This document shows, one piece after another, positions 7,467 through 39,800 of a DNA stretch of 64,000 nt; positions within the stretch are counted from its first letter, which is position 1; each line of letters begins with the position of its first letter. The notes below the pieces were generated by a model, which was not told the origin of the DNA, did not search any database, and was given only the letters and a program-made list of their open reading frames with translations. The stretch spans positions 226,061-290,060 of the forward strand of contig JAAVTG010000740.1 of assembly GCA_011947345.1 (NCBI GenBank), read 5' to 3'. A program made the translations under genes and the position numbers. This DNA comes from Phytophthora quininea (Eukaryota; Oomycota; Peronosporomycetes; Peronosporales; Peronosporaceae).

Positions 7467-10400
7467 ATGGCTGGAGTGCAGGGCCTGCTTGGGGTTTTGC
7501 TGTTGCTGAGTGCTTTGGCACAGATTGGAGATGCTGCATGTGCCAACCAATGCTCGGGTCACGGTCGCTGCGGGACTTCCAAGTAGGAACGAGGAACAAC
7601 TGGAACAAGTGTTGCAATTGATGTATGTTATTGCTATTCTGTTTGTAGTCAATGTACGTGCGATGCAGACTGGGCCTTAGCGCCAGATTGCTCGCTACGG
7701 AAGTGCCCGAGGGGGTCGCATGGACGGATAAGGCCACGACGGCAAATGTGGCCCACGCCGCAGCTGAATGCTCGAACCGCGGCATCTGCGACCACTCCAA
7801 GGCAATAGTTACAAAATCGTGTACAGGCGACCAATACGGATGCCAACAGTGCTGTGTACTATGAACAGGGCGAGTGTTCGTGCTTCAACGGCTTCACGGG
7901 GGCGGCATGCCAACGACGTACGTGACGAAACGCTGCGGGGTCTTAAAACACCTAACTCATGTACTTGTAGTTCGCTGTCCATCGGACTGTTCCAGCCATG
8001 GACTGTGCTATTCTTCAGCGACATTGGCTTTAATGTTCGGTCCTTCTTCCTCTCCTAGCGTTGCAGGAAACGGATTCGGTCCCGTGTACACAAATTGGGA
8101 GAAGGACAGCATGTCGAGCTGCCTGTGTGATATGGGCTACACAGGTCCCGACTGCTCTCATCGTACGTTTATTTCGACCGCTTTGGTGTCTCTGTTTTTT
8201 TTTATGAATCGCTACGTGCAGTCATGTGTGCCAAGAACGACGACCCGCTCACGACAAATCAAGGGTACCGGACGATACAAATCACGGTCGGCGCAGATGC
8301 TTCGACCAACATTGCGCTGGCGGGGTCTGTTCGTATCGATTTCTTAGGAGACACCGCAGTCTTAGCTGCTAATGCTGTCGCAGATGCTGCACACCAAGCT
8401 GCGTGCGCAAGTGCGTTCACGAATTTGCGGAGTGTGCTGAGTGCAACCTGTACAATCACAAGCGTCAACTCAGTAACGAAGGGCGCGGTTTATACGGTGG
8501 CCTTCACGGCGTGGAACCCCTTGGGGGCAGAAAACAACTTGCTGTATCATGATGGAAATCCGCCACTCACCAGCTTCAGTTGTGACATCAGCAAAGTTAC
8601 GAGTGCCAACACTCCTACGTGCACAATAGCCGACGTTGTCGCTACCAACGTCATCGGTAAGATGTCTTTTATTGTTTTGAGAAAGATACTTCTAACGTTG
8701 CCTCCCTAGAACACGTTTACTGTTCAAACCGTGGTTTGTGTGACTTTAGTTCTGGGCAATGTGCCTGTTATGCCGACTTCAAAGGGATGGATTGTAACCA
8801 ACCGTCCAATGTTCCTGACAGCATCGATGATAACGACGGCTTTGTGATCAATCCCTTGGGTCTCACGTACGTTGGTACTGTCCTTCACTTAAAGACTGCC
8901 AAAGGCTCTCAGGGAGATTTCTACTTTTTGAATATTGAGTCCTCTACGATGGGCATTCTGACTATGGACGGATTGGGGAATACCAACCTGCTAAATGGGA
9001 ATCTCCAGATATCGACAGGTTCGTTGGCAATCACCACCAGCGCTCAGACTGTGACTGCTGCGGATATTGCGAACACTCACGTGTCTTTCACTGGAACGAC
9101 GTTGCGGGTCCGAACGACTCGACCATCAGCCACGTCGTTTAAATTGCTTGAAGCAATGACAAGTGGAGCGACCACCGTCGTTAGCATTCGTGGAGATGGT
9201 CTCACAACGATTCAAACTGGCGGACTTTCGATCGTCACAGGAGGAGCAACAATTTCCCACAACTTGGACGCTTCCACGCTCAGTGTCACCAATACAAACC
9301 CGTCATTCACACAAGCAATTCTGTCGCTGACATCGACGCGAGCCAGCCAGTTCCCATTGACCGATTTCAAATTTATAGACGCCAGTGCCAATAATGGTCC
9401 CAGCGCTTTTACTGTTGAGGCTTCTGGGAAGACAACCATCGCGAATGGAGGTTTGTTTGTGAACGGTTTTGGAGGTGGAACCATTTCAAATACAAATCCG
9501 GCAGCTCCGACGTTGACAGTGACTCCGCAGGCGACAAACTTTGTCAGTGATGCCTTGTTTATTAAAACAATCTCCACAGTTGCTCACAATATGATGAAAG
9601 TCACAATTGAAACCACTCCCGGTTCCCCGATTGTCTTATTCACAATCAGCAAAACAGGACTGACTACCATCACGCAAGGAGGGCTTTATGTAGCCCTTGG
9701 AGGAGCTACTATCGCTGCTGGAGGTCTACATGTCGGGACTGGTGGGCAAACAATTGACTATGGTGGGCTTCGAATCTTAAATGCTGGTGAGACGATCAGC
9801 TTAGGGGATTGAACGTTGCGGATGGTGGGGCGACTATTGTATCGACCTCACCTAGTGTCGACGTTATGGCAGTTCAAGCCACCGTGGCAACGTTTTCGAA
9901 CAACGCGAAAGTCCTTCATATCAACTCAGCGTCGACGAATCCAACTATGTACTACCTGTTGTACGCAGATACTGCTCCTGCGGGGCCGCTGTTTTCGATT
10001 CTTGGGACTGGAAAAACTGAGATATACAAAGGAGGTTTAGTGGTTGACGATGGGGGCAACCATCACCAACACCGGTACAGCAGCAACTACGCTCACGGTT
10101 TCAAACCCGCTTACGACTGGATTCACTGGCACGTTACTTTCGCTGAATGCTGCCACCGTAGACGCGACGAACGTAATTTACTCTCTGATCGACGCTAAGA
10201 TGTCAACAACGTCGATGTTCACAGTGGCCAACACAGGCCTTACAACAATTTCTGCAGGAGGGCTGCTAGTTACGGCAGGCGGGGCCACCGTCACGGCTGG
10301 CGGACTCAAGGTTTTAGGCGGCGGCTCGTCAATCACGGGAGGCCTCGTTGCGACAGACACGGGGTTCACGGTCACCACTGGCGGAGCAACCATCACAGCG

Positions 10401-13400
10401 GGTGGGCTGCTAGTTACGGCAGGCGGGGCCACCGTCACGGCTGGCGGACTCAAGGTTTAGGCGGCGGCTCGTCAATCACGGGAGGCCTCGTTGCGACAGA
10501 CACGGGGTTCACGGTCACCACTGGCGGAGCAACCATCACAGCGGGTGGGCTGCTAGTTACGGCAGGCGGGGCCACCGTCACGGCTGGCGGACTCAAGGTT
10601 TTAGGCGGCGGCTCGTCAATCACGGGAGGCCTCGTTGCGACAGACACGGGGTTCACGGTCACCACTGGCGGAGCAACCATCACAGCGGGTGGGCTGCTAG
10701 TTACGGCAGGCGGGGCCACCGTCACGGCTGGCGGACTCAAGGTTTTAGGCGGCGGCTCGTCAATCACGGGAGGCCTCGTTGCGACAGACACGGGGTTCAC
10801 GGTCACCACTGGCGGAGCAACCATCACAGCGGGTGGGCTGCTAGTTACGGCAGGCGGGGCCACCGTCACGGCTGGCGGACTCAAGGTTTTAGGCGGCGGC
10901 TCGTCAATCACGGGAGGCCTCGTTGCGACAGACACGGGGTTCACGGTCACCACTGGCGGAGCAACCATCACAGCGGGTGGGCTGCTAGTTACGGCAGGCG
11001 GGGCCACCGTCACGGCTGGCGGACTCAAGGTTTTAGGCGGCGGCTCGTCAATCACGGGAGGCCTCGTTGCGACAGACACGGGGTTCACGGTCACCACTGG
11101 CGGAGCAACCATCACAGCGGGTGGGCTGCTAGTTACGGCAGGCGGGGCCACCGTCACGGCCGGAGGACTCGTGGTGTCGGCGGACGGCGCCTCCGTCACC
11201 GCCGGAACGGCCGCCACGGCGCTCACCGTCTCCAACACGGTCGCGACTGGATTCGCCGGCACGGTGCTTTCTCTGAGCGTTGCGACCACGGGCACCGCCA
11301 ACGCTTTGATCGACGCGAAGGCGGGCGGCACGTCCATGTTTAAGGTAGCCAACAGCGGACTCACCTCCATTACGGCAGGAGGGCTCAGTGTTACGGCAGG
11401 CGGGGCCACCGTCACGGCCGGCGGACTCAAGGTATTGGCCGCAGGGGCGTCAATCACGGGAGGCCTCGTTGCGACAGACACGGGGTTCACGGTCACCACT
11501 GGCGGAGCAACCATCACAGCGGGTGGGCTGCTAGTTACGGCAGGCGGGGCCACCGTCACGGCTGGCGGACTCAAGGTTTTAGGCGGCGGCTCGTCAATCA
11601 CGGGAGGCCTCGTTGCGACAGACACGGGGTTCACGGTCACCACTGGCGGAGCAACCATCACAGCGGGTGGGCTGCTAGTTACGGCAGGCGGGGCCACCGT
11701 CACGGCCGGAGGACTCGTGGTGTCGGCGGACGGCGCCTCCGTCACCGCCGGAACGGCCGCCACGGCGCTCACCGTCTCCAACACGGTCGCGACTGGATTC
11801 GCCGGCACGGTGCTTTCTCTGAGCGTTGCGACCACGGGCACCGCCAACGCTTTGATCGACGCGAAGGCGGGCGGCACGTCCATGTTTAAGGTAGCCAACA
11901 GCGGACTCACCTCCATTACGGCAGGAGGGCTCAGTGTTACGGCAGGCGGGGCCACCGTCACGGCCGGCGGACTCAAGGTATTGGCCGCAGGGGCGTCAAT
12001 CACGGGAGGCCTCGTTGCGACAGACACGGGGTTCACGGTCACCACTGGCGGAGCAACCATCACAGCGGGTGGGCTGCTAGTTACGGCAGGCGGGGCCACC
12101 GTCACGGCTGGCGGACTCAAGGTTTTAGGCGGCGGCTCGTCAATCACGGGAGGCCTCGTTGCGACAGACACGGGGTTCACGGTCACCACTGGCGGAGCAA
12201 CCATCACAGCGGGTGGGCTGCTAGTTACGGCAGGCGGGGCCACCGTCACGGCTGGCGGACTCAAGGTTTTAGGCGGCGGCTCGTCAATCACGGGAGGCCT
12301 CGTTGCGACAGACACGGGGTTCACGGTCACCACTGGCGGAGCAACCATCACAGCGGGTGGGCTGCTAGTTACGGCAGGCGGGGCCACCGTCACGGCCGGA
12401 GGACTCGTGGTGTCGGCGGACGGCGCCTCCGTCACCGCCGGAACGGCCGCCACGGCGCTCACCGTCTCCAACACGGTCGCGACTGGATTCGCCGGCACGG
12501 TGCTTTCTCTGAGCGTTGCGACCACGGGCACCGCCAACGCTTTGATCGACGCGAAGGCGGGCGGCACGTCCATGTTTAAGGTAGCCAACAGCGGACTCAC
12601 CTCCATTACGGCAGGAGGGCTCAGTGTTACGGCAGGCGGGGCCACCGTCACGGCCGGGGGACTCAAGGTATTGGCCGCAGGGGCGTCAATCACGGGAGGC
12701 CTCGTTGCGACAGACACGGGGTTCACGGTCACCACTGGCGGAGCAACCATCACAGCGGGTGGGCTGCTAGTTACGGCAGGCGGGGCCACCGTCACGGCTG
12801 GCGGACTCAAGGTTTTAGGCGGCGGCTCGTCAATCACGGGAGGCCTCGTTGCGACAGACACGGGGTTCACGGTCACCACTGGCGGAGCAACCATCACAGC
12901 GGGTGGGCTGCTAGTTACGGCAGGCGGGGCCACCGTCACGGCTGGCGGACTCAAGGTTTTAGGCGGCGGCTCGTCAATCACGGGAGGCCTCGTTGCGACA
13001 GACACGGGGTTCACGGTCACCACTGGCGGAGCAACCATCACAGCGGGTGGGCTGCTAGTTACGGCAGGCGGGGCCACCGTCACGGCTGGCGGACTCAAGG
13101 TTTTAGGCGGCGGCTCGTCAATCACGGGAGGCCTCGTTGCGACAGACACGGGGTTCACGGTCACCACTGGCGGAGCAACCATCACAGCGGGTGGGCTGCT
13201 AGTTACGGCAGGCGGGGCCACCGTCACGGCCGGAGGACTCGTGGTGTCGGCGGACGGCGCCTCCGTCACCGCCGGAACGGCCGCCACGGCGCTCACCGTC
13301 TCCAACACGGTCGCGACTGGATTCGCCGGCACGGTGCTTTCTCTGAGCGTTGCGACCACGGGCACCGCCAACGCTTTGATCGACGCGAAGGCGGGCGGCA

Positions 13401-16400
13401 CGTCCATGTTTAAGGTAGCCAACAGCGGACTCACCTCCATTACGGCAGGAGGGCTCAGTGTTACGGCAGGCGGGGCCACCGTCACGGCCGGCGGACTCAA
13501 GGTATTGGCCGCAGGGGCGTCAATCACGGGAGGCCTCGTTGCGACAGACACGGGGTTCACGGTCACCACTGGCGGAGCAACCATCACAGCGGGTGGGCTG
13601 CTAGTTACGGCAGGCGGGGCCACCGTCACGGCTGGCGGACTCAAGGTTTTAGGCGGCGGCTCGTCAATCACGGGAGGCCTCGTTGCGACAGACACGGGGT
13701 TCACGGTCACCACTGGCGGAGCAACCATCACAGCGGGTGGGCTGCTAGTTACGGCAGGCGGGGCCACCGTCACGGCCGGAGGACTCGTGGTGTCGGCGGA
13801 CGGCGCCTCCGTCACCGCCGGAACGGCCGCCACGGCGCTCACCGTCTCCAACACGGTCGCGACTGGATTCGCCGGCACGGTGCTTTCTCTGAGCGTTGCG
13901 ACCACGGGCACCGCCAACGCTTTGATCGACGCGAAGGCGGGCGGCACGTCCATGTTTAAGGTAGCCAACAGCGGACTCACCTCCATTACGGCAGGAGGGC
14001 TCAGTGTTACGGCAGGCGGGGCCACCGTCACGGCCGGCGGACTCAGGTATTGGCCGCAGGGGCGTCAATCACGGGAGGCCTCGTTGCGACAGACACGGGG
14101 TTCACGGTCACCACTGGCGGAGCAACCATCACAGCGGGTGGGCTGCTAGTTACGGCAGGCGGGGCCACCGTCACGGCCGGAGGACTCGTGGTGTCGGCGG
14201 ACGGCGCCTCCGTCACCGCCGGAACGGCCGCCACGGCGCTCACCGTCTCCAACACGGTCGCGACTGGATTCGCCGGCACGGTGCTTTCTCTGAGCGTTGC
14301 GACCACGGGCACCGCCAACGCTTTGATCGACGCGAAGGCGGGCGGCACGTCCATGTTTAAGGTAGCCAACAGCGGACTCACCTCCATTACGGCAGGAGGG
14401 CTCAGTGTTACGGCAGGCGGGGCCACCGTCACGGCCGGCGGACTCAAGGTATTGGCCGCAGGGGCGTCAATCACGGGAGGCCTCGTTGCGACAGACACGG
14501 GGTTCACGGTCACCACTGGCGGAGCAACCATCACAGCGGGTGGGCTGCTAGTTACGGCAGGCGGGGCCACCGTCACGGCTGGCGGACTCAGGTTTTAGGC
14601 GGCGGCTCGTCAATCACGGGAGGCCTCGTTGCGACAGACACAGGGTTCACGGTCACCACTGGCGGAGCAACCATCACAGCGGGTGGGCTGCTAGTTACGG
14701 CAGGCGGGGCCACCGTCACGGCTGGCGGACTCAAGGTTTTAGGCGGCGGCTCGTCAATCACGGGAGGCCTCGTTGCGACAGACACGGGGTTCACGGTCAC
14801 CACTGGCGGAGCAACCATCACAGCGGGTGGGCTGCTAGTTACGGCAGGCGGGGCCACCGTCACGGCCGGAGGACTCGTGGTGTCGGCGGACGGCGCCTCG
14901 TCACCGCCGGAACGGCCGCCACGGCGCTCACCGTCTCCAACACGGTCGCGACTGGATTCGCCGGCACGGTGCTTTCTCTGAGCGTTGCGACCACGGGCAC
15001 CGCCAACGCTTTGATCGACGCGAAGGCGGGCGGCACGTCCATGTTTAAGGTAGCCAACAGCGGACTCACCTCCATTACGGCAGGAGGGCTCAGTGTTACG
15101 GCAGGCGGGGCCACCGTCACGGCCGGCGGACTCAAGGTATTGGCCGCAGGGGCGTCAATCACAGGAGGCCTCGTTGCGACAGACACGGGGTTCACGGTCA
15201 CCACTGGCGGAGCAACCATCACAGCGGGTGGGCTGCTAGTTACGGCAGGCGGGGCCACCGTCACGGCCGGAGGACTCGTGGTGTCGGCGGACGGCGCCTC
15301 CGTCACCGCCGGAACGGCCGCCACGGCGCTCACCGTCTCCAACACGGTCGCGACTGGATTCGCCGGCACGGTGCTTTCTCTGAGCGTTGCGACCACGGGC
15401 ACCGCCAACGCTTTGATCGACGCGAAGGCGGGCGGCACGTCCATGTTTAAGGTAGCCAACAGCGGACTCACCTCCATTACGGCAGGAGGGCTCAGTGTTA
15501 CGGCAGGCGGGGCCACCGTCACGGCCGGCGGACTCAAGGTATTGGCCGCAGGGGCGTCAATCACGGGAGGCCTCGTTGCGACAGACACGGGGTTCACGGT
15601 CACCACTGGCGGAGCAACCATCACAGCGGGTGGGCTGCTAGTTACGGCAGGCGGGGCCACCGTCACGGCTGGCGGACTCAAGGTTTTAGGCGGCGGCTCG
15701 TCAATCACGGGAGGCCTCGTTGCGACAGACACGGGGTTCACGGTCACCACTGGCGGAGCAACCATCACAGCGGGTGGGCTGCTAGTTACGGCAGGCGGGG
15801 CCACCGTCACGGCCGGAGGACTCGTGGTGTCGGCGGACGGCGCCTCCGTCACCGCCGGAACGGCCGCCACGGCGCTCACCGTCTCCAACACGGTCGCGAC
15901 TGGATTCGCCGGCACGGTGCTTTCTCTGAGCGTTGCGACCACGGGCACCGCCAACGCTTTGATCGACGCGAAGGCGGGCGGCACGTCCATGTTTAAGGTA
16001 GCCAACAGCGGACTCACCTCCATTACGGCAGGAGGGCTCAGTGTTACGGCAGGCGGGGCCACCGTCACGGCCGGCGGACTCAAGGTATTGGCCGCAGGGG
16101 CGTCAATCACGGGAGGCCTCGTTGCGACAGACACGGGGTTCACGGTCACCACTGGCGGAGCAACCATCACAGCGGGTGGGCTGCTAGTTACGGCAGGCGG
16201 GGCCACCGTCACGGCCGGAGGACTCGTGGTGTCGGCGGACGGCGCCTCCGTCACCGCCGGAACGGCCGCCACGGCGCTCACCGTCTCCAACACGGTCGCG
16301 ACTGGATTCGCCGGCACGGTGCTTTCTCTGAGCGTTGCGACCACGGGCACCGCCAACGCTTTGATCGACGCGAAGGCGGGCGGCACGTCCATGTTTAAGG

Positions 16401-19400
16401 TAGCCAACAGCGGACTCACCTCCATTACGGCAGGAGGGCTCAGTGTTACGGCAGGCGGGGCCACCGTCACGGCCGGCGGACTCAAGGTATTGGCCGCAGG
16501 GGCGTCAATCACGGGAGGCCTCGTTGCGACAGACACGGGGTTCACGGTCACCACTGGCGGAGCAACCATCACAGCGGGTGGGCTGCTAGTTACGGCAGGC
16601 GGGGCCACCGTCACGGCTGGCGGACTCAGGTTTTAGGCGGCGGCTCGTCCAATCACGGGAGGCCTCGTTGCGACAGACACGGGGTTCACGGTCACCACTG
16701 GCGAGCAACCATCACAGCGGGTGGGCTGCTAGTTACGGCAGCGGGGCCACTGTCACGGCTGGCGGACTCAAGGTTTTAGGCGGCGGCTCGTCAATCACGG
16801 GAGGCCTCGTTGCGACAGACACAGGGTTCACGGTCACCACTGGCGGAGCAAGCATCACAGCGGGTGGGCTGCTAGTTACGGCAGGCGGGGCCACCGTCAC
16901 GGCTGGCGGACTCAAGGTTTTAGGCGGCGGCTCGTCAATCACGGGAGGCCTCGTTGCGACAGACACGGGGTTCACGGTCACCACTGGCGGAGCAACCATC
17001 ACAGCGGGTGGGCTGCTAGTTACGGCAGGCGGGGCCACCGTCACGGCTGGCGGACTCAAGGTTTTAGGCGGCGGCTCGTCAATCACGGGAGGCCTCGTTG
17101 CGACAGACACGGGGTTCACGGTCACCACTGGCGGAGCAACCATCACAGCGGGTGGGCTGCTAGTTACGGCAGGCGGGGCCACCGTCACGGCCGGAGGACT
17201 CGTGGTGTCGGCGGACGGCGCCTCCGTCACCGCCGGAACGGCCGCCACGGCGCTCACCGTCTCCAACACGGTCGCGACTGGATTCGCCGGCACGGTGCTT
17301 TCTCTGAGCGTTGCGACCACGGGCACCGCCAACGCTTTGATCGACGCGAAGGCGGGCGGCACGTCCATGTTTAAGGTAGCCAACAGCGGACTCACCTCCA
17401 TTACGGCAGGAGGGCTCAGTGTTACGGCAGGCGGGGCCACCGTCACGGCCGGCGGACTCAAGGTATTGGCCGCAGGGGCGTCAATCACGGGAGGCCTCGT
17501 TGCGACAGACACGGGGTTCACGGTCACCACTGGCGGAGCAACCATCACAGCGGGTGGGCTGCTAGTTACGGCAGGCGGGGCCACCGTCACGGCTGGCGGA
17601 CTCAAGGTTTTAGGCGGCGGCTCGTCAATCACGGGAGGCCTCGTTGCGACAGACACGGGGTTCACGGTCACCACTGGCGGAGCAACCATCACAGCGGGTG
17701 GGCTGCTAGTTACGGCAGGCGGGGCCACCGTCACGGCCGGAGGACTCGTGGTGTCGGCGGACGGCGCCTCCGTCACCGCCGGAACGGCCGCCACGGCGCT
17801 CACCGTCTCCAACACGGTCGCGACTGGATTCGCCGGCACGGTGCTTTCTCTGAGCGTTGCGACCACGGGCACCGCCAACGCTTTGATCGACGCGAAGGCG
17901 GGCGGCACGTCCATGTTTAAGGTAGCCAACAGCGGACTCACCTCCATTACGGCAGGAGGGCTCAGTGTTACGGCAGGCGGGGCCACCGTCACGGCCGGCG
18001 GACTCAAGGTATTGGCCGCAGGGGCGTCAATCACGGGAGGCCTCGTTGCGACAGACACGGGGTTCACGGTCACCACTGGCGGAGCAACCATCACAGCGGG
18101 TGGGCTGCTAGTTACGGCAGGCGGGGCCACCGTCACGGCTGGCGGACTCAAGGTTTTAGGCGGCGGCTCGTCAATCACGGGAGGCCTCGTTGCGACAGAC
18201 ACGGGGTTCACGGTCACCACTGGCGGAGCAACCATCACAGCGGGTGGGCTGCTAGTTACGGCAGGCGGGGCCACCGTCACGGCTGGCGGACTCAAGGTTT
18301 TAGGCGGCGGCTCGTCAATCACGGGAGGCCTCGTTGCGACAGACACGGGGTTCACGGTCACCACTGGCGGAGCAACCATCACAGCGGGTGGGCTGCTAGT
18401 TACGGCAGGCGGGGCCACCGTCACGGCCGGAGGACTCGTGGTGTCGGCGGACGGCGCCTCCGTCACCGCCGGAACGGCCGCCACGGCGCTCACCGTCTCC
18501 AACACGGTCGCGACTGGATTCGCCGGCACGGTGCTTTCTCTGAGCGTTGCGACCACGGGCACCGCCAACGCTTTGATCGACGCGAAGGCGGGCGGCACGT
18601 CCATGTTTAAGGTAGCCAACAGCGGACTCACCTCCATTACGGCAGGAGGGCTCAGTGTTACGGCAGGCGGGGCCACCGTCACGGCCGGCGGACTCAAGGT
18701 ATTGGCCGCAGGGGCGTCAATCACGGGAGGCCTCGTTGCGACAGACACGGGGTTCACGGTCACCACTGGCGGAGCAACCATCACAGCGGGTGGGCTGCTA
18801 GTTACGGCAGGCGGGGCCACCGTCACGGCTGGCGGACTCAAGGTTTTAGGCGGCGGCTCGTCAATCACGGGAGGCCTCGTTGCGACAGACACGGGGTTCA
18901 CGGTCACCACTGGCGGAGCAACCATCACAGCGGGTGGGCTGCTAGTTACGGCAGGCGGGGCCACCGTCACGGCTGGCGGACTCAAGGTTTTAGGCGGCGG
19001 CTCGTCAATCACGGGAGGCCTCGTTGCGACAGACACGGGGTTCACGGTCACCACTGGCGGAGCAACCATCACAGCGGGTGGGCTGCTAGTTACGGCAGGC
19101 GGGGCCACCGTCACGGCTGGCGGACTCAAGGTTTTAGGCGGCGGCTCGTCAATCACGGGAGGCCTCGTTGCGACAGACACGGGGTTCACGGTCACCACTG
19201 GCGGAGCAACCATCACAGCGGGTGGGCTGCTAGTTACGGCAGGCGGGGCCACCGTCACGGCCGGAGGACTCGTGGTGTCGGCGGACGGCGCCTCCGTCAC
19301 CGCCGGAACGGCCGCCACGGCGCTCACCGTCTCCAACACGGTCGCGACTGGATTCGCCGGCACGGTGCTTTCTCTGAGCGTTGCGACCACGGGCACCGCC

Positions 19401-22400
19401 AACGCTTTGATCGACGCGAAGGCGGGCGGCACGTCCATGTTTAAGGTAGCCAACAGCGGACTCACCTCCATTACGGCAGGAGGGCTCAGTGTTACGGCAG
19501 GCGGGGCCACCGTCACGGCCGGCGGACTCAAGGTATTGGCCGCAGGGGCGTCAATCACGGGAGGCCTCGTTGCGACAGACACGGGGTTCACGGTCACCAC
19601 TGGCGGAGCAACCATCACAGCGGGTGGGCTGCTAGTTACGGCAGGCGGGGCCACCGTCACGGCCGGAGGACTCGTGGTGTCGGCGGACGGCGCCTCCGTC
19701 ACCGCCGGAACGGCCGCCACGGCGCTCACCGTCTCCAACACGGTCGCGACTGGATTCGCCGGCACGGTGCTTTCTCTGAGCGTTGCGACCACGGGCACCG
19801 CCAACGCTTTGATCGACGCGAAGGCGGGCGGCACGTCCATGTTTAAGGTAGCCAACAGCGGACTCACCTCCATTACGGCAGGAGGGCTCAGTGTTACGGC
19901 AGGCGGGGCCACCGTCACGGCCGGCGGACTCAAGGTATTGGCCGCAGGGGCGTCAATCACGGGAGGCCTCGTTGCGACAGACACGGGGTTCACGGTCACC
20001 ACTGGCGGAGCAACCATCACAGCGGGTGGGCTGCTAGTTACGGCAGGCGGGGCCACCGTCACGGCCGGAGGACTCGTGGTGTCGGCGGACGGCGCCTCCG
20101 TCACCGCCGGAACGGCCGCCACGGCGCTCACCGTCTCCAACACGGTCGCGACTGGATTCGCCGGCACGGTGCTTTCTCTGAGCGTTGCGACCACGGGCAC
20201 CGCCAACGCTTTGATCGACGCGAAGGCGGGCGGCACGTCCATGTTTAAGGTAGCCAACAGCGGACTCACCTCCATTACGGCAGGAGGGCTCAGTGTTACG
20301 GCAGGCGGGGCCACCGTCACGGCCGGCGGACTCAAGGTATTGGCCGCAGGGGCGTCAATCACGGGAGGCCTCGTTGCGACAGACACGGGGTTCACGGTCA
20401 CCACTGGCGGAGCAACCATCACAGCGGGTGGGCTGCTAGTTACGGCAGGCGGGGCCACCGTCACGGCCGGAGGACTCGTGGTGTCGGCGGACGGCGCCTC
20501 CGTCACCGCCGGAACGGCCGCCACGGCGCTCACCGTCTCCAACACGGTCGCGACTGGATTCGCCGGCACGGTGCTTTCTCTGAGCGTTGCGACCACGGGC
20601 ACCGCCAACGCTTTGATCGACGCGAAGGCGGGCGGCACGTCCATGTTTAAGGTAGCCAACAGCGGACTCACCTCCATTACGGCAGGAGGGCTCAGTGTTA
20701 CGGCAGGCGGGGCCACCGTCACGGCCGGCGGACTCAAGGTATTGGCCGCAGGGGCGTCAATCACGGGAGGCCTCGTTGCGACAGACACGGGTTCACGGTC
20801 ACCACTGGCGGAGCAACCATCACAGCGGGTGGGCTGCTAGTTACGGCAGGCGGGGCCACCGTCACGGCTGGCGGACTCAAGGTTTTAGGCGGCGGCTCGT
20901 CAATCACGGGAGGCCTCGTTGCGACAGACACGGGGTTCACGGTCACCACTGGCGGAGCAACCATCACAGCGGGTGGGCTGCTAGTTACGGCAGGCGGGGC
21001 CACCGTCACGGCCGGAGGACTCGTGGTGTCGGCGGACGGCGCCTCCGTCACCGCCGGAACGGCCGCCACGGCGCTCACCGTCTCCAACACGGTCGCGACT
21101 GGATTCGCCGGCACGGTGCTTTCTCTGAGCGTTGCGACCACGGGCACCGCCAACGCTTTGATCGACGCGAAGGCGGGCGGCACGTCCATGTTTAAGGTAG
21201 CCAACAGCGGACTCACCTCCATTACGGCAGGAGGGCTCAGTGTTACGGCAGGCGGGGCCACCGTCACGGCCGGCGGACTCAAGGTATTGGCCGCAGGGGC
21301 GTCAATCACGGGAGGCCTCGTTGCGACAGACACGGGGTTCACGGTCACCACTGGCGGAGCAACCATCACAGCGGGTGGGCTGCTAGTTACGGCAGGCGGG
21401 GCCACCGTCACGGCCGGAGGACTCGTGGTGTCGGCGGACGGCGCCTCCGTCACCGCCGGAACGGCCGCCACGGCGCTCACCGTCTCCAACACGGTCGCGA
21501 CTGGATTCGCCGGCACGGTGCTTTCTCTGAGCGTTGCGACCACGGGCACCGCCAACGCTTTGATCGACGCGAAGGCGGGCGGCACGTCCATGTTTAAGGT
21601 AGCCAACAGCGGACTCACCTCCATTACGGCAGGAGGGCTCAGTGTTACGGCAGGCGGGGCCACCGTCACGGCCGGCGGACTCAAGGTATTGGCCGCAGGG
21701 GCGTCAATCACGGGAGGCCTCGTTGCGACAGACACGGGGTTCACGGTCACCACTGGCGGAGCAACCATCACAGCGGGTGGGCTGCTAGTTACGGCAGGCG
21801 GGGCCACCGTCACGGCCGGAGGACTCGTGGTGTCGGCGGACGGCGCCTCCGTCACCGCCGGAACGGCCGCCACGGCGCTCACCGTCTCCAACACGGTCGC
21901 GACTGGATTCGCCGGCACGGTGCTTTCTCTGAGCGTTGCGACCACGGGCACCGCCAACGCTTTGATCGACGCGAAGGCGGGCGGCACGTCCATGTTTAAG
22001 GTAGCCAACAGCGGACTCACCTCCATTACGGCAGGAGGGCTCAGTGTTACGGCAGGCGGGGCCACCGTCACGGCCGGCGGACTCAAGGTATTGGCCGCAG
22101 GGGCGTCAATCACGGGAGGCCTCGTTGCGACAGACACGGGGTTCACGGTCACCACTGGCGGAGCAACCATCACAGCGGGTGGGCTGCTAGTTACGGCAGG
22201 CGGGGCCACCGTCACGGCTGGCGGACTCAAGGTTTTAGGCGGCGGCTCGTCAATCACGGGAGGCCTCGTTGCGACAGACACGGGGTTCACGGTCACCACT
22301 GGCGGAGCAACCATCACAGCGGGTGGGCTGCTAGTTACGGCAGGCGGGGCCACCGTCACGGCCGGAGGACTCGTGGTGTCGGCGGACGGCGCCTCCGTCA

Positions 22401-24729
22401 CCGCCGGAACGGCCGCCACGGCGCTCACCGTCTCCAACACGGTCGCGACTGGATTCGCCGGCACGGTGCTTTCTCTGAGCGTTGCGACCACGGGCACCGC
22501 CAACGCTTTGATCGACGCGAAGGCGGGCGGCACGTCCATGTTTAAGGTAGCCAACAGCGGACTCACCTCCATTACGGCAGGAGGGCTCAGTGTTACGGCA
22601 GGCGGGGCCACCGTCACGGCCGGCGGACTCAAGGTATTGGCCGCAGGGGCGTCAATCACGGGAGGCCTCGTTGCGACAGACACGGGGTTCACGGTCACCA
22701 CTGGCGGAGCAACCATCACAGCGGGTGGGCTGCTAGTTACGGCAGGCGGGGCCACCGTCACGGCTGGCGGACTCAAGGTTTTAGGCGGCGGCTCGTCAAT
22801 CACGGGAGGCCTCGTTGCGACAGACACGGGGTTCACGGTCACCACTGGCGGAGCAACCATCACAGCGGGTGGGCTGCTAGTTACGGCAGGCGGGGCCACC
22901 GTCACGGCTGGCGGACTCAAGGTTTTAGGCGGCGGCTCGTCAATCACGGGAGGCCTCGTTGCGACAGACACGGGGTTCACGGTCACCACTGGCGGAGCAA
23001 CCATCACAGCGGGTGGGCTGCTAGTTACGGCAGGCGGGGCCACCGTCACGGCCGGAGGACTCGTGGTGTCGGCGGACGGCGCCTCCGTCACCGCCGGAAC
23101 GGCCGCCACGGCGCTCACCGTCTCCAACACGGTCGCGACTGGATTCGCCGGCACGGTGCTTTCTCTGAGCGTTGCGACCACGGGCACCGCCAACGCTTTG
23201 ATCGACGCGAAGGCGGGCGGCACGTCCATGTTTAAGGTAGCCAACAGCGGACTCACCTCCATTACGGCAGGAGGGCTCAGTGTTACGGCAGGCGGGGCCA
23301 CCGTCACGGCCGGCGGACTCAAGGTATTGGCCGCAGGGGCGTCAATCACGGGAGGCCTCGTTGCGACAGACACGGGGTTCACGGTCACCACTGGCGGAGC
23401 AACCATCACAGCGGGTGGGCTGCTAGTTACGGCAGGCGGGGCCACCGTCACGGCTGGCGGACTCAAGGTTTTAGGCGGCGGCTCGTCAATCACGGGAGGC
23501 CTCGTTGCGACAGACACGGGGTTCACGGTCACCACTGGCGGAGCAACCATCACAGCGGGTGGGCTGCTAGTTACGGCAGGCGGGGCCACCGTCACGGCCG
23601 GAGGACTCGTGGTGTCGGCGGACGGCGCCTCCGTCACCGCCGGAACGGCCGCCACGGCGCTCACCGTCTCCAACACGGTCGCGACTGGATTCGCCGGCAC
23701 GGTGCTTTCTCTGAGCGTTGCGACCACGGGCACCGCCAACGCTTTGATCGACGCGAAGGCGGGCGGCACGTCCATGTTTAAGGTAGCCAACAGCGGACTC
23801 ACCTCCATTACGGCAGGAGGGCTCAGTGTTACGGCAGGCGGGGCCACCGTCACGGCCGGCGGACTCAAGGTATTGGCCGCAGGGGCGTCAATCACGGGAG
23901 GCCTCGTTGCGACAGACACGGGGTTCACGGTCACCACTGGCGGAGCTAACATTCTGGATACCACTACAGGAAACGCTGATACCGTTACGGTCAAGAACTC
24001 TGCCGGGGGCTTTACGGGATCGCTTCTTGTACTTGACTCGGTTGCGACCAGTGGCTTCAACTTGATCAATGCCAAGGTCGCCTCTGGGTCGGTATTCACC
24101 GTCGCTTCCACGGGAGTTACAACCATAGCAGGAGGCGGGCTCAGTGTGACTGGCGGGGTTACAATTGTTGATACGGGACTCACTGTATCTGCGGGGAATG
24201 TCGTCGTTTCAGCAACAACTTCGTCCACCGCAAGTACCAACGGAGCTCTTGTTGTTAATGGTGGAGTGGGCGTCGCAAAAGACATCCAGTGCGCCGGGTC
24301 AGTGTACAGCAATGGCGTTGCTTTGACATCCGATAAGCGGCTGAAGTATGCGATCCAGTCCATGGAGACGTCCGGGGACGTCATCAAGCGTCTTCGACCG
24401 GTGCGCCAGGTCCTTCTGCTGCATCATCCTGCATTGCTTTTTAACTCCAACGTGTTTGTCTTGCTGCTGCTTTAGGTGACGTTCGAGTGGCGACGCGACG
24501 AGTTCCCGACGCGCAACTTCCCCGCCGGAGTGACGCCAGGCTTCCTGGCCGACGAAGTGCAAAAATCCTCCCCGAGCTGGTACATGAAGACGGGGACGGC
24601 TACAAGTCGCTCAATTACGTGGGCATCGTGCCGCACCTCGTGCGCGCCGTGCAGGAGCTGCAGACAGAGCTCCGGAGCGTGCGCGAGCAGGTCGCCACAC
24701 TGCGGGCGGGAGGCGAATTGCGCGCGTAG
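7467..24729 (+). CDS. Giant secreted repeat protein with EGF-like modules and C-terminal S74 chaperone domain
   Basis: About 5,650 residues. ATG 7467 opens a signal peptide (hydrophobic VLLLLSALAQI, probable cleavage after GDA). Cys-rich EGF/teneurin-like modules follow (CSGHGRC, CSNRGIC, CPSDCSSHGLC, CLCDMGYTGPDC, CSNRGLCDF). Introns are at 7583-7648, 7918-7970, 8163-8221, 8657-8709 and 24410-24475; all conform to GT..AG and restore frame. From 8800 to 10300 there are several diverged solenoid units (GLTTI..GGL-V). From 10305 to 23947 lies the near-identical array. After two more diverged units comes a tail-fibre-like linker (GALVVNGGVGVAKDI), then SDKRLK, GFLADEVQK, DGYKSLNYVGIVPHLV and a short coiled coil ending at 24729. 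This end matches the Peptidase S74/ICA domain of phage tailspikes and MYRF. Probable one-base losses lie near 7714, 7801, 7814, 9805, 10456, 14046, 14590, 14899, 16628, 16703, 16740, 20791 and 24559, with a gain at 16650; the G run near 10050 also shifts frame. A surface or adhesive role is inference. Confidence 0.88.
10305..23947 (+). repeat. Mosaic tandem array of 402-bp (A) and 144-bp (B) coding units
   Basis: Two in-frame unit types alternate. B is 48 codons (LKVLGGGSSITGG..., ending GGATVTAGG). A is 134 codons and starts LVVSADGASVTAG; its last 48 codons are a B-like variant with LAAGA in place of LGGGS. From start-to-start distances I count 23 A units and 31 B units. Six B come first, then the number of B after successive A units is 1,2,3,1,0,2,0,1,0,4,1,2,3,0,0,0,1,0,0,1,2,1,0. 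Copies are almost identical at DNA level; the few substitutions seen include 12658 (C to G), 14641, 15164, 16750, 16822 and 16852. Within a unit a roughly 7-residue rhythm (TAGGLLV, TAGGATV, TAGGLKV) suggests a beta-solenoid. True copy number may differ because such arrays are hard to assemble. Confidence 0.93.
24221..24729 (+). other. Tail-fibre-like linker and S74 intramolecular chaperone (ICA) domain
   Basis: This is the end of the giant protein. The segment TASTNGALVVNGGVGVA resembles the linker common before phage tail-fibre C-termini. The S74 domain starts at the Ser codon 24329-24331 in TSDKRLK. In phage endosialidase the chain is cut just before this Ser, using it together with a Lys five residues on; here that Lys is codon 24344-24346. 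Later family landmarks are LRPV, FEWRRDEFP, GFLADEVQK and DGYKSLNYVGIVPHLVRAVQELQ, followed by a short coiled coil. The domain contains a 66-nt intron (24410-24475) and one missing A in the run near 24559. In characterised members it trimerises, folds the upstream fibre and is then released. Confidence 0.88.
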
Positions 24730-25481: not shown

Positions 25482-26468
25482 TTAGCGTCGACCCTGACGT
25501 TGAAGCATTTCGTGAATACTCTCAATGTAGTCAGGCCCAATTCCACAGCAACCACCAACAATCTCGACCCCCAGCGATACCCATTGCGACACGAAATCGG
25601 TATATCTTTCCACTGCCAGGTCCGTACGCATTGCTTGCGGCTCACTAGACTCTGCCAGAGCCCAGTTGTCAGGTATGACCGTGAGCCGATTAGCGTAAGC
25701 CCCGAGTTGAATCTGGCGGCAGCGTAGACTTGCTTTCACTTCCCCGTTTGCATTTAACTCGGTCAGAGCTTTGCAGATCGCCTCTGGTTGTGAACAGTTA
25801 AACAGCATGGCACGCAGATCCACATCCACACTTCCGTCGGTAAAGCTTATCAGTTGCTGTGCTGCGTCGCATGCGCTCTCTCCACTGCGAAGTCTTCCTT
25901 GGCTGTTAATTGAGAAGGACACCATCACTTCACGTGTTCTTCTTGCACCGCTTGCTTGCTCCAAAGCTTTTTGCACTCCAAGCAGCGCCATCTTAGCCTC
26001 ATTTACCGACGACAACGTCTCCGCCAAATAACAGTCCACGTAGGGTGCCAACGTTACTGCGGTCATGGCGTAAAGCCGAACGCCTTCGTCCTGCTCCGGA
26101 ACTTTGTCCGCTCTGTAGCTTTCCAGTAGCGGAGGCAGAGACCCACAGACTTTGGGCGTTGTTCTGTTGGGATCCGCCGCAGTCCATTGCTCGCAGGCCT
26201 CTCTCGCTAGTCGTCCAGCCACTGCCGTGTATTTAACGATCTCGTCGTCGCTAAAGCCGACGCCTGGTGTCACCCCATAGTTGTTGCACGTGATCAAGTC
26301 AGAGCCGGCGGTCAGGAAGGACGAATGTACATCCCGCAGCAGCGCGTGATGCTGCTCGTGCATCAGTGCAGAGGCCGACCAGATCTTTCGGTCGTCTGGG
26401 AGGCCGCGTGTGAAGAGCTCCTCACCTGTTCCTCCATCTAGCAGCAGCACCCGCGGACGAGTCGCCAT
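25482..26468 (-). CDS. Homocysteine S-methyltransferase family protein (copy 1)
   Basis: 328 residues, uninterrupted, from ATG 26468; an upstream ATG at 26495 would add nine residues. The family's TIM-barrel landmarks are present: LLLDGGTGEELFTRG at the N-terminus, NNYGVTPGVGF, CGSLPPL, a first zinc-ligand Cys in FNCSQPE, and the paired Cys in VGGCCGIGP near the C-terminus. These three Cys bind the zinc that activates the homocysteine thiol. The methyl donor in stand-alone eukaryotic members is usually S-methylmethionine or S-adenosylmethionine. Product: methionine. It lies head-to-tail with a paralogue 126 bp upstream. Which donor it uses cannot be read from the sequence. Confidence 0.9.
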   Translation of the reverse strand: MATRPRVLLLDGGTGEELFTRGLPDDRKIWSASALMHEQHHALLRDVHSSFLTAGSDLITCNNYGVTPGVGFSDDEIVKYTAVAGRLAREACEQWTAADPNRTTPKVCGSLPPLLESYRADKVPEQDEGVRLYAMTAVTLAPYVDCYLAETLSSVNEAKMALLGVQKALEQASGARRTREVMVSFSINSQGRLRSGESACDAAQQLISFTDGSVDVDLRAMLFNCSQPEAICKALTELNANGEVKASLRCRQIQLGAYANRLTVIPDNWALAESSEPQAMRTDLAVERYTDFVSQWVSLGVEIVGGCCGIGPDYIESIHEMLQRQGRR

Positions 26469-26594
26469 AGCTTTGCGTGTTGCAACTCGGAACATATAAA
26501 TCCCACAAGAAAGTAAGGAACAAACACAAAGTGATCGGTGTTTTTCAGATCGTGAGATTGAAGAGAAGCGAACATGAACTATATGCAAGGCCGC

Positions 26595-27555
26595 CTACTG
26601 TGCCAGCATCTCCGTCATGCGCTGCAAGTAGCTGGGTGGAATGCCGCAGCACCCGCCGACAATCTCGGCGCCATCTTCAATCCAGCGCGCAGCAAACTTG
26701 CTGTAGATCTCCATGTCCATCACTGAATGCAGCGCGCCGGGGATCAGCGTCTCCTCCATGGCACCAGCCTTGGACACGGGCGAGATCTGGTCGCCGTAGC
26801 CGCCAAGACGGATGCCTCTCTTGGCCAACTCGCTTGTCAGCTCGGAAACTTCTTTGATCTGCATCAAGGCCTTGGCGATATCCTCCGGCTGCGAGCAGTT
26901 AAAGAGGATCGCGCACAACGGGCTGCGTTCCGTCTCCACGTCACCAGGGACGGCTTCGTCGCGACTGCAGAGCTCAAGCAGACCCACGACACTTTCAACC
27001 ACCGACTCGCCGCAGCGTAGCTGACCGGTGCTGTTAAGAGCAAATGACACCATCACGGGCTTCCCCAGCGACTGCACCGCCTCAACCGCCATCTTGGCCT
27101 CTGCAAGCGACGACATGGTCTCCGCAACGAACATGTCCACGGACGGGAGCAGCGCCTCGCCAATCAGCTTGTACATGTCGTGGCCCTTTGACGGTCGATC
27201 ATGCGGTCCGACCGGAAGCAGGGCATGAGTGGCGGCAGCGAGCCGCAGATCTTGGCGCTCTCCTTGCGACCAGCTTTCGCTCGAGCCTCGACGGCCAGCT
27301 CCCCGCCAGACTCGTGTACTCGCGAATCTCGTCAGCGGTGAAGCCCAGGCCCGGACTCACGTAGTAGTTGTTGGTGACGATCATGGTGGCGCCGTTGTCG
27401 AGGAAATCCTCGTGGGCTTTCTTCACCATCCAGTGGCGCGACGGCGACACCAACGCACTGGCCGACAGCATGTTGCGGTCGTTCGGCAGTCCGCGACGAA
27501 GCAGCTCGTGCGTGATACCTCCGGCAATGATGTCGATCTTCGTCTTGGAATCCAT
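26595..27555 (-). CDS. Homocysteine S-methyltransferase family protein (copy 2)
   Basis: About 320 residues from ATG 27555. It is collinear with copy 1: IIAGGITHELLRRGLPNDR, NNYYVSPGLGF, a Cys-Gly-Ser-Leu-Pro-Pro segment, ILFNCSQPED and VGGCCGIPPSY, so all three zinc-ligand Cys are kept. Two single-base losses split the frame, one in the G run near 27301-27304 and one near 27190; each lies in or beside a homopolymer and restores the family sequence when allowed for. The pair arose by tandem duplication and is clearly diverged at protein level, so the duplication is not recent. The TCATTTAAGAAT sequence about 30 bp upstream of the start is initiator-like. Confidence 0.87.
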
Positions 27556-27833
27556 GGATTTGCTTTCTCTTCTTCGCAGGAAAGCCGATTCTTAAATGAA
27601 AGCAAGACGGCCAACATGACAGCGGGTGCAATATGCGACCGGGGAAACGTGGCAGCCAAAGCTTTTCCAACGGAGTCCATTGGCCAAGTTGAAGTGGTTG
27701 CACAGATAACCTGTCTCGAAATGATCGCGTACGTATAGTGCAATCAAATGATCGGGCAGTCATTTCGAGATGGATACAGTTTGATAAATAGGGCGTGGTG
27801 CTTATCTTTTCGAAGGTTGAGAAGGGGTCGACG

Positions 27834-29282
27834 ATGGCGGACGAGCTGCCGGAGATGACGTGGATGAGCGTCGCGTGCGCGGCGGCGGGCGCCGTGCTGG
27901 TGCCGCTGCTGCTGCACCGCATCTTCATCCACAAGCAGGTGACGCACGAGAGCTCGGCGGGCTCGGGGTCCCTGGCGGACTACGTGGAGAAGGTGTGTCA
28001 ATGCCAACAGGAGTTAGTAGAAGACCCCTACTGACTTGTGTGACGCACTCCAGCATGGCATGAGCGAGCTTGACGCCAAGTTCCAAGTAGCGGTGGACTT
28101 TATTGCAGCCAGAGGCAACAACAAGCTCAGCAATGAGCAGGTGAAGCGACTTTAGTGTTGCGGAATCTATGAAGAGAGCTGACTGAGTGATATCTTGGCA
28201 GAAACTGACGCTCTACGCGTTCTACAAGCAAGCCCACTTTGGCAAGTGCAGTGTGGACAAGCCGTCCGCTGTGGATATGGTGGGCTCGGCCAAGTGGTGC
28301 GTGCATCTTTAAAGTTACGTGCGTTCTATGGCTGATGGAATTTATTGGTGCGCAGGGAGAGCTGGAGGGCGCTGGGAGAAATGGACCAGGATGTCGCCAA
28401 GCAGCAGTACGTCGAGTGGGTGCAGGATTTGTTTGAGGAGTTTGATGTGCGTGGCCCCAAGAGATGGCGCTCGTTGTCTGGTTCCTCGCCGCCAAAGGTT
28501 TCGAGTGAATCGCTGTCGCTTGACAATATATCGATGGCCGGAGCGGTCAGTATGCCCAAGGTCGATATGTACGTTAAACTAATTGCTGCAACTTCTTGCG
28601 GAGTGCTGAGTGGTTGCTGTAGGACGACAGAGGAATGGAAAGTGAAAGACGATGTGTTTAACTACGCAAGTACTGGAGATCTCGACAAGTTGAGGGCTGC
28701 GCTGGATGCAGGAGAAAACATCAATGCCCAGGTAAGTGTCGACAGCAAAGGAATACCCAGATCTGGTGATTGTTGATTGTCCTAGAGGATAGTTGTACGA
28801 TGTGCGTTGGAGCTTACCTCTACTGTTGTTGATGTGTGCGTGAATCAAAGGACCCGGAAGGCCGAACGATGATGCACTGGGCGGTTGACCGTGATCAAAC
28901 TACAATTGTCGAAGAGCTACTGCGGCGTAAGGCGTCGCCGAACGTTCAGGTACGACCGTGGTGGCTGTAGTATTATGGATATTTGTTGATGAGGCCTTTT
29001 GGATGTGCATTTGCCCGGCAGGATTCGGACGGCATGACGCCGCTGCATTACGCGGCGAGTTGCGAGCACGAGGAGATGGCCCAACTACTGGTAAGCTTAC
29101 AAACCGTTTAGCATACAATTTCGCTTCGCTTGCCGCAGAGCTAAGGTGGGATGTTGTCATAGGTCATGCACGGCGCGCTTGTGGACATCGAGGACCTCGA
29201 CGGCGAAACACCGCTCACGACGGCGTCTACCCAAGCGCTGCAGTCCATCATGGAGGACGGCTCGACAGCCGATCCGCAATAG
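27834..29282 (+). CDS. Membrane-anchored acyl-CoA-binding protein with ankyrin repeats
   Basis: Eight exons with no frame break: 27834-27992, 28054-28140, 28202-28296, 28356-28568, 28623-28731, 28851-28949, 29022-29090, 29163-29282 (316 residues). Residues about 8-28 form one hydrophobic helix (SVACAAAGAVLVPLLLHRI). An acyl-CoA-binding domain follows (FQVAVDFIAARGNNKLS, LYAFYKQAHFGKC, W-RALGEMDQDVAKQQYVEWV). A Ser-rich linker leads to three ankyrin repeats (DLDKLRAALDAGENINAQ, GRTMMHWAVDRD, DGMTPLHYAASCEHEEMAQLL). ACB domains carry long-chain acyl-CoA in the cytosol. The TM + ACB + ankyrin order is that of plant class II ACBPs, which sit on the ER or plasma membrane; animal ACBD6 lacks the TM segment. 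The promoter has an initiator-like TCATTTCGAGA at 27760. Confidence 0.93.
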
Positions 29283-36874: not shown

Positions 36875-39800
36875 ATGTTCATCTTCCTGAGCAAGAAGAT
36901 CGCCATCCCCAACAACGTCAAGCTTCGGTGCGCGTCCTGGAACACAGAGCAAGGATGGATCGCCTGCGGCGGACAGCACGGGCTGCTGAAAGTGCTGCGA
37001 CTCGAGTCGGCGGCGCAAGCGGACGGCAAAGGTCCGCGCGGCATCGCGGCCGCCAGCAACCTCACCATGAACCAGTCGCTGGAAGGACATAACGGCGCCG
37101 TAGTGTGCGCTACGTGGAACGCCAACTTCAAGAAGCTCACCACGAGCGACGAGAACGGCTTGATCATCGTCTGGGTGCTGCATCGCGGCATGTGGTACGA
37201 GGAGATGATCAACAACCGCAACAAGAGCGTCGTGCGGGACATGAAGTGGACCACCGACGGCCAAAGATCTGCATCGCCTACGAGGACGGCGCTGTGATCG
37301 TTGGATCCGTGGACGGGAACCGCCTCTGGGGCAAGGAGATGAAGACTCAACTCGCTTTTGTCGAGTGGTCACCCGATGGAAAGTCGCTGCTGTTTGTGAC
37401 CAAGGAAGGAGAAGTGGCGGTGCACGACGCCATGGGCAACAAGGTCAGCAACTTGACGTTGTACGCTGTCGAGTCTCGTGGCAACGACTACAAGATCATT
37501 GGCGTCCACTGGTACGACGGTATCGAAGGCCACATCAGCCAGGAGGCACCAACGTTGGCCATTGCGTTCCGTGATGGCAAAGTGCAGATCACTCGAGGCA
37601 GGTTCGATGAGAACGCCGTGCTCATTGACACCGGAATGGAATTGACGCAGGTGAGGTGGAACAACGACGGTAGCGTGATCGCGTTGGCGGGTACGCAGGT
37701 CGACACGTCGGGGTCGAAAAGCGACACGCCTAAAGAGTTCAACGTCGTGCAGTTCTACGATCCATTTGGGCGGCACTTGCGCTCGCTTCGCGTGCCAGGG
37801 AGTCGTATCGAAGCGCTTGCGTGGGAAGGCACCGGGCTGCGAATTTGTCTGGCAGTGGACTCGCACATTTACTTTGCAAATATTCGACCAGCGTACAAGT
37901 GGGGGTTCTACGCGAACACGTTAGTGTACACATACAACCGCGCAGACCAGATCGAGAACTGCGTCGTGTTTTGGGACACCAAGTCTGACGAGCGCTGCAC
38001 CAAGTACATTCGTGGACTGTTGGCAATCAAAGCTGCAGGCGATAATTGCGTTCTCGTGACCAAGATTTACAATGAGGACATGGGAGCAGGAGAGGTCAAC
38101 GGACAGATCGTAGACAATGACCAAGGCGTGTTCAAGGAGATTCAATACCAACTGATCCTTTGCGACACAATCGGAAGCCCCATTGAGTCCAAGATCATCG
38201 ACTTTGAGCCAATGTACGTGGCCATGACATCGCGCCACATCGTTGCTGCCTCTACAGATGCAATCTACGTGTGGCAATACAAGAACTCAAGCGCCAAGCT
38301 AACTGGCTTGGTGTCCGGCAACTCGAATGCCGTGGACGTTAGCACGATTTCCCAGTTGCTACAGCGCGGAGGAGGACGTGAGAAGGCCTTCTACATTGAC
38401 GAGACGCAAGGAATTGACGCCGTGCACTTTCGATACGTTGCTCGCCAGTTGGAAGACCCAATTTGCGCGATATGTGCCTCCGAAAGCTGGATATTTGCAG
38501 CGCGGGCAAGCGGGTTGATCCACTGCTTCACATTACCACACATTTCGTTGGAAATGAAGTACATCGTGAACTGCCGCCCTCAATTCCTGGCACTCAACTG
38601 CAATTCAACGCAGCTGAGTGTGATTGACATCAACGGAATGTTGACAATCATGGAGGTGGGAGCGGCGGGAAGTATAAACACCACGCAAGGTAAGATGTTG
38701 AACTTTGAGAAAAAGACGCGTGGGATGTGATGTGGGCGGAAGACAACCCCGAGCTCTTTGTGATGATGGAGAAGGCCCGAATGTACGTGTATCGCGGCTT
38801 GGAACCGGAAGAGCCCGTGTCATCATCGGGGTATCTCTGTTACTACAAGGATCTGCAGGTCAAGGCTGCTCTACTCGACGAGATTCTAGCCAACCCTGAG
38901 CAGCCGGACCGGAACATGGTGATCGAGTTCCAGACTCGATCATTGCGCGATGCCAAGGCCCTTCTGGATAACGTGGGCCTAGCTGAAGCTTGCGAATATA
39001 TCCAGGACCACCCGCACCCTCGTCTCTGGTCTCTCTTGGCTGAAGCAGCGTTGGATCAACTAGACTTTGGGATGGCAGAGCGCGGCTTCGTCAAATGTGC
39101 AGATTACAGCGGCATCCAGTACGTTAAACGCTTGCAACTGCTCAACGATCGAGTGAAGCAGAAGGCAGAGGTGGCTGCTTACTTTCAGAATTTTGATGAA
39201 GCCGAAGCGCTGTACCGCAAAATCGATCGTAAGGATCTGGCCATCGACTTACGCCAGAGACTTGGCGACTGGTTTCGCGTTGTTCAGCTTGTTCAGTCCG
39301 GCGGAGGCAACGACGACTTGCTAACGCATGCGTGGAATATGATCGGCGAATATTTCTCCGACCGCCACAAGTGGGACAAAGCGATCAAGTATTATACACA
39401 GGCGAAAAACACGAATGCATTGATGCAGTGCTATTACGCCTTGGGCGACTTTAACCAGCTTGAAGCACTCGTGAATGATATCCCCGAAAGCTCTCCGCTG
39501 TTGAAGGAGATGGCTGTGAAATTCACCCGAGCGGGACTGTGTCAATCCGCTGTGGAAACGTATGTGCGGATGGGAGACGTCAAGTCGGCCATCGACTCGT
39601 GCGTTCTTCTGAACGAATGGGAGCGAGCAGTTGAGCTCGCCGAGCAATACAACTTCCCACAGATTGAAAATGTACTAACCAAATACGCGAGCCATCTCAT
39701 GATGAACGGGAAAACACTGCAAGCGATCGAATTGTATCGCCGTGCTAACAAAAGTACCGAGGCAGCTAAACTTCTTGCGAAGCTAGCGAAGGATGTGCGA

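Follow-up and report, generated by a model that had tools for sequence, protein, structure and literature searches.

A stretch of 64,000 nucleotides from Phytophthora quininea, referred to below as the window, carries on its + strand a giant gene (7467-24729, ATG at 7467) that, on balance, we take to be nuclear and to encode a secreted fibre protein, in which a head of the mastigoneme type would be joined to a trimeric, self-cleaving fibre of the phage type, and which may form part of the flagellar hair outside the tubular shaft. Coordinates are positions in the window, and the genome comprises 87.2 Mb in 993 contigs, labelled by C and a number. The original prediction for this DNA had described a single nuclear gene with introns, and five introns with GT-AG ends, placed by eye, agree with that description (7583-7648, 7918-7970, 8163-8221, 8657-8709 and 24410-24475, with lengths of 66, 53, 59, 53 and 66 bp); they link the Cys-rich exons and divide the C-terminal Peptidase_S74 (S74) domain, and relatives of the gene keep its frame.

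Head, repeat array and S74 domain

As judged from sequence, the N-terminal head of the giant gene is a member of the EGF family of stramenopile mastigoneme proteins (Ocm/Sig1/Mas type). A spliced reading of exons 3, 4 and the start of exon 5 (252 amino acids, aa) gave six PDB matches at E<=1, all of which were chains of 9ufe, a solved tubular mastigoneme whose chains include OCM3, OCM5 and OCM6; the best match reached 1.4e-14 and one chain was aligned over residues 2-240. The same structure accounted for 6/6 PDB matches (E<=0.1) of the Nothophytophthora protein P0039, a relative of the giant gene. Within the P. quininea genome a 9ufe stretch recovered 32 matches, several of them in genes where the module is present more than once, and the mastigoneme-type gene on C561 matched 9ufe at 4.5e-60. 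Four pieces of the giant-gene head, separated at frame breaks and cut out by eye, were collinear with the mastigoneme genes on C561 and C704, each scoring above the best of 500 shuffles, and exon 1 together with the start of exon 2 was collinear with residues 1-35 of the gene on C561. The mastigoneme-type EGF gene family is seen on C561, C114, C704, C74, C578, C570 and C521, and on C561 and C114 it includes a tandem pair.

A hydrophobic leader, read from the sequence by eye, follows the ATG, and the EGF modules exceed the Pfam cut-offs (EGF_Teneurin, 45.3 bits against 24.3; EGF_2, 24.5 against 22.1). The EGF modules of the original prediction are thereby upheld, as is a leader of the secreted type; that the head is of the mastigoneme type had been missed. 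The domain encoded by exon 4 (modelled at 8224-8658) came out as alpha/beta (pLDDT 78.2). Among the structural neighbours listed for it, the best were chains of phage tail tips, capsids and sheaths together with domains of the flagellin type, a likeness in the model that is perhaps just a common arrangement.

The array that follows (10260 to ~23960) amounts to ~4,570 residues of near-identical 48- and 134-residue repeats; its phage-fibre-like character had been foreseen, at a length of ~4,900 residues of solenoid that now has to be reduced. Between anchor words, 140 of the 147 segments of the six common kinds are identical to the commonest form of their own kind; four of the seven that deviate are one base short and three carry substitutions only, and three additional segments, fused through loss of an anchor word, are each one base short. 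The GC content is 67% in the array against 50% in the head. Glycine recurs in the array units with a period of seven residues (lag-7 autocorrelation 0.79 and 0.47), as it does in P0001, a shorter paralogue described below (0.61). As the Nothophytophthora counterpart has a similar design with different unit sequences, the arrays seem to be renewed within lineages. The rise per seven-residue rung in triple beta-helices is 4.8 A, at which the array would form a fibre of about 0.31 um. The self-processing, trimeric fibre that had been envisaged is plausible in its first two attributes, and this estimate lies below the micrometre scale attached to it. The length of the array depends on the assembly, the allelic contig C231 starting within it.

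At the C-terminus the predicted S74 domain was recovered with the PF13884 profile: when the two 3' exons were spliced and read to the next frame break they scored 23.2 bits (cut-off 22; model positions 1-51 of 58), and the first exon piece unspliced scored 17.6 bits, under the cut-off. The domain contains the Ser-Lys dyad, S-D-K-R-L-K at 24329 with Lys at Ser+5. In MyRF, S587 and K592, which correspond to S911 and K916 of endoNF, are described as needed for self-cleavage, which takes place only in the trimer (PMC8326128). Directly before the S74 domain of the giant gene stands a neck motif, STASTNGALVVNGGVGVAKD (window 23961-24330), which was also found in 7/9 nameless environmental proteins recovered with the giant-gene tail, as scored by an ad hoc pattern that misses the relatives P0038 and P0039. 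As a hint only, the giant gene may resemble environmental fibre proteins more than the short paralogue at its fibre end, and this end may come from a separate source.

Family spread and reading frame

Besides the split copy in the window, PF13884 has 12 matches in the genome. A shorter paralogue on C172 comprises a leader, an EGF head, GG repeats and an S74 domain in ~1,000 aa; its S74 domain lies in one open frame, whereas that of the giant gene holds an intron, and an S74 end near-identical to it is found at the end of contig C195. Relatives of the C172 paralogue made up 37/37 matches in one protein search and 32/41 in another, in which the other nine carry S74 and cover, where given, <=14% of the query. 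The identity is 74-77% to most Phytophthora matches, 68% to Plasmopara and 61% to a P. cactorum fragment, and the named genera are Phytophthora, Plasmopara, Lagenidium, Globisporangium, Pythium, Achlya, Saprolegnia and Aphanomyces. In P. nicotianae the short paralogue is F441_20154. Among 12 aligned members, S74 and the Ser-Lys dyad are present in all and EGF_2 in 11. The giant form and the short paralogue share the head domain (P0001 against P0039, E 1e-42). Two of the 11 matches to the tail of the giant form bear names, Nothophytophthora and P. fragariaefolia, in a search limited by protein length.

The order of EGF, repeat and S74, which the original prediction had proposed to look for in other oomycetes, is thus present from Saprolegnia, Achlya and Aphanomyces to Pythium-type genera and Phytophthora. 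The design is not unique to the giant gene, as short EGF, GG-repeat and S74 proteins of many oomycetes are already deposited in databases; each of the modules is known, and their combination is in the databases without a name. Our search of a literature library returned no paper joining oomycetes with peptidase S74, or tubular mastigonemes with endosialidase, and for endosialidase and Phytophthora it returned one paper, on polintons. The named genera form zoospores, though Globisporangium ultimum seldom does so, and a link between the presence of the short paralogue and the retention of flagella is suggestive only. Hyaloperonospora, Bremia and Peronospora, whose database coverage was unchecked, are not among the named matches, many matches being nameless, and neither is Albugo, whose presence in the database was likewise unchecked and which is described as retaining zoospores (PMC3471859).

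The original prediction needs one correction as to the reading frame, which is broken in exon 2, exon 5, the array and the S74 exon. The one-base breaks are apparently two in exon 2 and one at each of the two places in exon 5 given in Table 1; the frame changes ~7 times within the array, and one further break lies in exon 6, where it is found also in the allelic contig C231, which shows no difference between 24089 and 24735. The P. fragariaefolia relative P0038 reads on through the region of the exon-6 break. The exon-4 piece is 67% identical to P0039 and the exon-5 piece 65% over 358 aa, P0039 reading straight across intron 4 of the giant gene, and 157 tail residues are 61% identical to P0038; at these identities with Nothophytophthora and P. 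fragariaefolia proteins the frame appears to have been long kept by selection. Two of the three allele differences in the tail are silent. In the neighbourhood, a homocysteine S-methyltransferase gene is readable in three frames, one of its breaks being absent from the allelic contig, and the second propeller of WDR35/IFT121 is split at ~38727, one frame covering positions 1-248 and another 253-320 of the 321. As frame breaks thus also affect conserved genes nearby, those of the giant gene are probably assembly errors. P0038 carries an additional ankyrin part and may be a fused gene model.

Table 1. Parts of the giant gene and their positions in the window
Feature	Position	Strand	Remark
Exon 1: ATG, hydrophobic leader, beginning of first Cys-rich/EGF module	7467..7582	+	
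Exon 2: EGF modules 1-2 with mastigoneme signature	7649..7917	+	pieced reading, two apparent frame breaks
Exon 3: third Cys-rich/EGF module	7971..8162	+	
Exon 4: alpha/beta domain between EGF modules, NNLLYHDGNPP motif	8222..8656	+	aligned with short-paralogue family
Exon 5, first part: EGF module 4 and diverged fibre repeats	8710..10259	+	frame breaks near 9812 and 10050
Tandem array: 144-bp and 402-bp units (48 and 134 residues), 7-residue GG period	10260..23960	+	GC 67%
Exon 5, last part: diverged repeats, neck, S74 first half	23961..24409	+	Ser codon 24329, Lys codon 24344
Intron 5, within S74 domain	24410..24475	+	GT-AG ends
Exon 6: S74 second half and short C-terminal tail	24476..24729	+	one frame break

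Possible viral sources and rival explanations

Among the 10 of 60 window open reading frames (ORFs) scanned beside the giant gene there were no virion genes and no viral ATPase or capsid genes, and the seven with Pfam matches are of eukaryotic types, the neighbours including Vps39, WDR35 and homocysteine S-methyltransferase. A tandem pair of homocysteine S-methyltransferase genes, with frame breaks in the second, lies directly downstream (25485-27934), and the flagellar transport gene WDR35/IFT121 lies at 37105-40526. By tblastn the exon-5 piece (359 aa) had no match in 50,697 phage records, of which P0038 matched seven, all within its S74 part; on these results a direct phage origin of the head was rejected.

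The original prediction held that eukaryotic S74 is best known from MYRF. It is also described as widely carried by polinton-like viruses in eukaryotic genomes (PMC12220804), and loci of similar appearance exist here: S74 matches on C752, C34, C469, C737 and C738 lie in apparent polinton-like viral elements, and on C752 a Pox_A32-type ATPase (35.8 bits) stands beside the S74 ORF. None of the 32 head-type matches in the genome is on the contigs of these viral-looking loci. Long SGGS-repeat open frames with S74 were seen at C691:198001-208000 (43.0 bits), with a PHROG tail-fibre match, at C691:236001-246000 (51.8 bits), where more SGGS repeats follow the S74 domain, and on C88; this looks like a third, cellular type of S74 locus. 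As to the donor of the domain, a one-gene FastTree tree of a ~110-residue stretch, its rows picked by the dyad motif, separated the short paralogues from the polinton-like loci and did not group P0038 with these paralogues; its deep branches are weak and we make no claim from it.

Several results weigh against a flagellar-hair fibre. An unrelated membrane protein of the same genome with only single EGF modules, taken as a control, also has 9ufe as its top PDB match (3.4e-9), so that a top match to 9ufe is by itself not specific; as the control matches over short stretches, the specificity of the head claim rests on order and span. In the fold-search listings for the head domain 9ufe was absent, from a library whose inclusion of 9ufe was unchecked, and the S74 query gave 11 PDB matches at E<=10 with no 9ufe chain among them, so that the shaft in its solved form seems to lack such a protein and S74 proteins would occupy another part. 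The single-chain model of the repeats in the short paralogue is of poor quality, with pLDDT mostly at 50-63, and at this low confidence its TM to phage S74 fibres is about 0.1. As the neck motif is found in 0/37 short paralogues, the fibre ends of the two forms may differ in origin or function. S74 is mentioned 0 times in the main text of the P. parasitica zoospore membrane proteome paper, the frame breaks make a pseudogene possible for the window copy, and both the flagellar-hair location and the fibre function of the giant gene are what we infer from its sequence.

There is a modest chance that the protein is instead a secreted S74 fibre belonging to the cell coat, a cyst adhesive or the extracellular matrix, and that the head is a common extracellular EGF module of stramenopiles, as could be argued from the 32 places matched by the mastigoneme stretch, several in multi-module genes, and from the control that also tops at 9ufe; yet all four modules are conserved in their order, as is the domain between modules, and the control shares just short EGF stretches. 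Of the surface or adhesive roles originally foreseen, adhesion of cysts or appressoria is less favoured by the mastigoneme-type head than a role in flagellar hairs. We think it rather unlikely that the copy in the window is a pseudogene in decay, or not one transcript, with the short paralogue as the working gene: breaks do fall in the head, the array and the S74 domain, the last in both haplotype contigs, but the frame is kept in the relatives from Nothophytophthora (65-67% identity) and P. fragariaefolia (61%), breaks of this kind occur in conserved neighbours too, and silent changes prevail among the tail allele differences (2/3). Capture of the whole gene from a polinton-like or other virus strikes us as very improbable. 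S74 fibres are reported as common in polinton-like viruses (PMC12220804), S74 ORFs lie near a viral-type ATPase on C752, and the neck motif links the tail to environmental proteins (7/9) and not to the short paralogues (0/37); the introns, leader, mastigoneme head and eukaryotic Pfam-matched neighbours, together with the 0/32 head-type matches on viral-looking S74 contigs, speak against it, and the S74 tree is too weak to place a donor. Viral capture of the fibre end only is compatible with a fibre bearing a mastigoneme head. Least probable of all is an assembly chimera of two genes joined via the repeat, for which the nearly perfect array and the start of C231 inside it could be cited, as the short paralogue has the same order of head, repeat and S74 in one protein across many species.

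Proposed assembly and comparison with known systems

For the mastigoneme-headed fibre that we favour, we propose that the C-terminal S74 domains bring the secreted chains together and would nucleate the trimer, and that three chains would wind into a long GG-repeat beta-fibre, folding from the S74 end. The S74 domain would then cut itself off at Ser via the Ser-Lys dyad, as in phage tailspikes and MYRF, and the head would probably dock the protein to the flagellar-hair assembly, a mastigoneme-type lattice, or to the zoospore surface. The likeliest site would be a non-tubular part of the flagellar hairs, the tip filaments or the fine hairs of zoospore flagella. The short conserved paralogue may be the standard part, and the giant form a longer, lineage-specific version whose length would change by duplication of units.

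We know of no identification of the protein of tripartite-hair tip filaments or of fine hairs. Zoospores of P. parasitica are described as bearing tubular hairs of three parts, 1.5 um in length and tipped with tiny hairs, together with a second kind of hair that is non-tubular and whose function is unknown; the hind flagellum is described as carrying fine hairs (PMC9068220). A broader and tentative idea, which we hold to be possible rather than probable, is that the tip filaments or fine hairs of stramenopiles are phage-type trimeric fibres, each with a mastigoneme head and a GG-repeat shaft whose folding and release would depend on an S74 chaperone domain of phage, viral or bacterial source, and with a length set by the number of tandem units. 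Should the explanation that we favour be right, a eukaryotic flagellar appendage would be built with the machinery that folds virus tail fibres. A viral part would thereby be put to a new use on the eukaryotic cell surface, and S74 would have another eukaryotic role besides the MYRF transcription factors. The gene, spread from Saprolegnia and Aphanomyces to Phytophthora, would then be a candidate for those components of the tripartite hair that the known shaft proteins do not explain.

Phage tail fibres and tailspikes with an S74/ICA domain (endoNF, long tail fibre distal subunits) share with the giant gene a repeat shaft followed by a C-terminal S74 domain with the Ser-Lys dyad, whereas the giant gene has a eukaryotic head, introns and a secretion leader, and no virion genes among the neighbours scanned. 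MYRF and MrfA are eukaryotic S74/ICA proteins with the same dyad but are transcription factors of the endoplasmic reticulum membrane; no Pfam match to a DNA-binding domain such as theirs was found in the giant-gene pieces scanned, exons 1-2 and most of the array being outside the scan. The S74 fibres of polinton-like viruses resemble the giant gene in being large modular proteins with a C-terminal S74 domain in protist genomes, and differ in their viral gene neighbours and in the lack of a head-type match on such contigs here. The deposited oomycete proteins annotated as 'EGF-like / Peptidase S74 domain-containing' (mostly 850-1,400 aa) share the EGF-domain-EGF head, the 7-residue GG repeats and the dyad, but are without the large tandem array and, in 37/37, without the neck motif. 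With the mastigoneme proteins (9ufe chains, Phytophthora Mas) the giant gene has in common the leader, the order of Cys-rich/EGF modules and a domain before the last module; in the giant gene, in contrast, this head leads into GG repeats that run to thousands of residues and then into an S74 domain.
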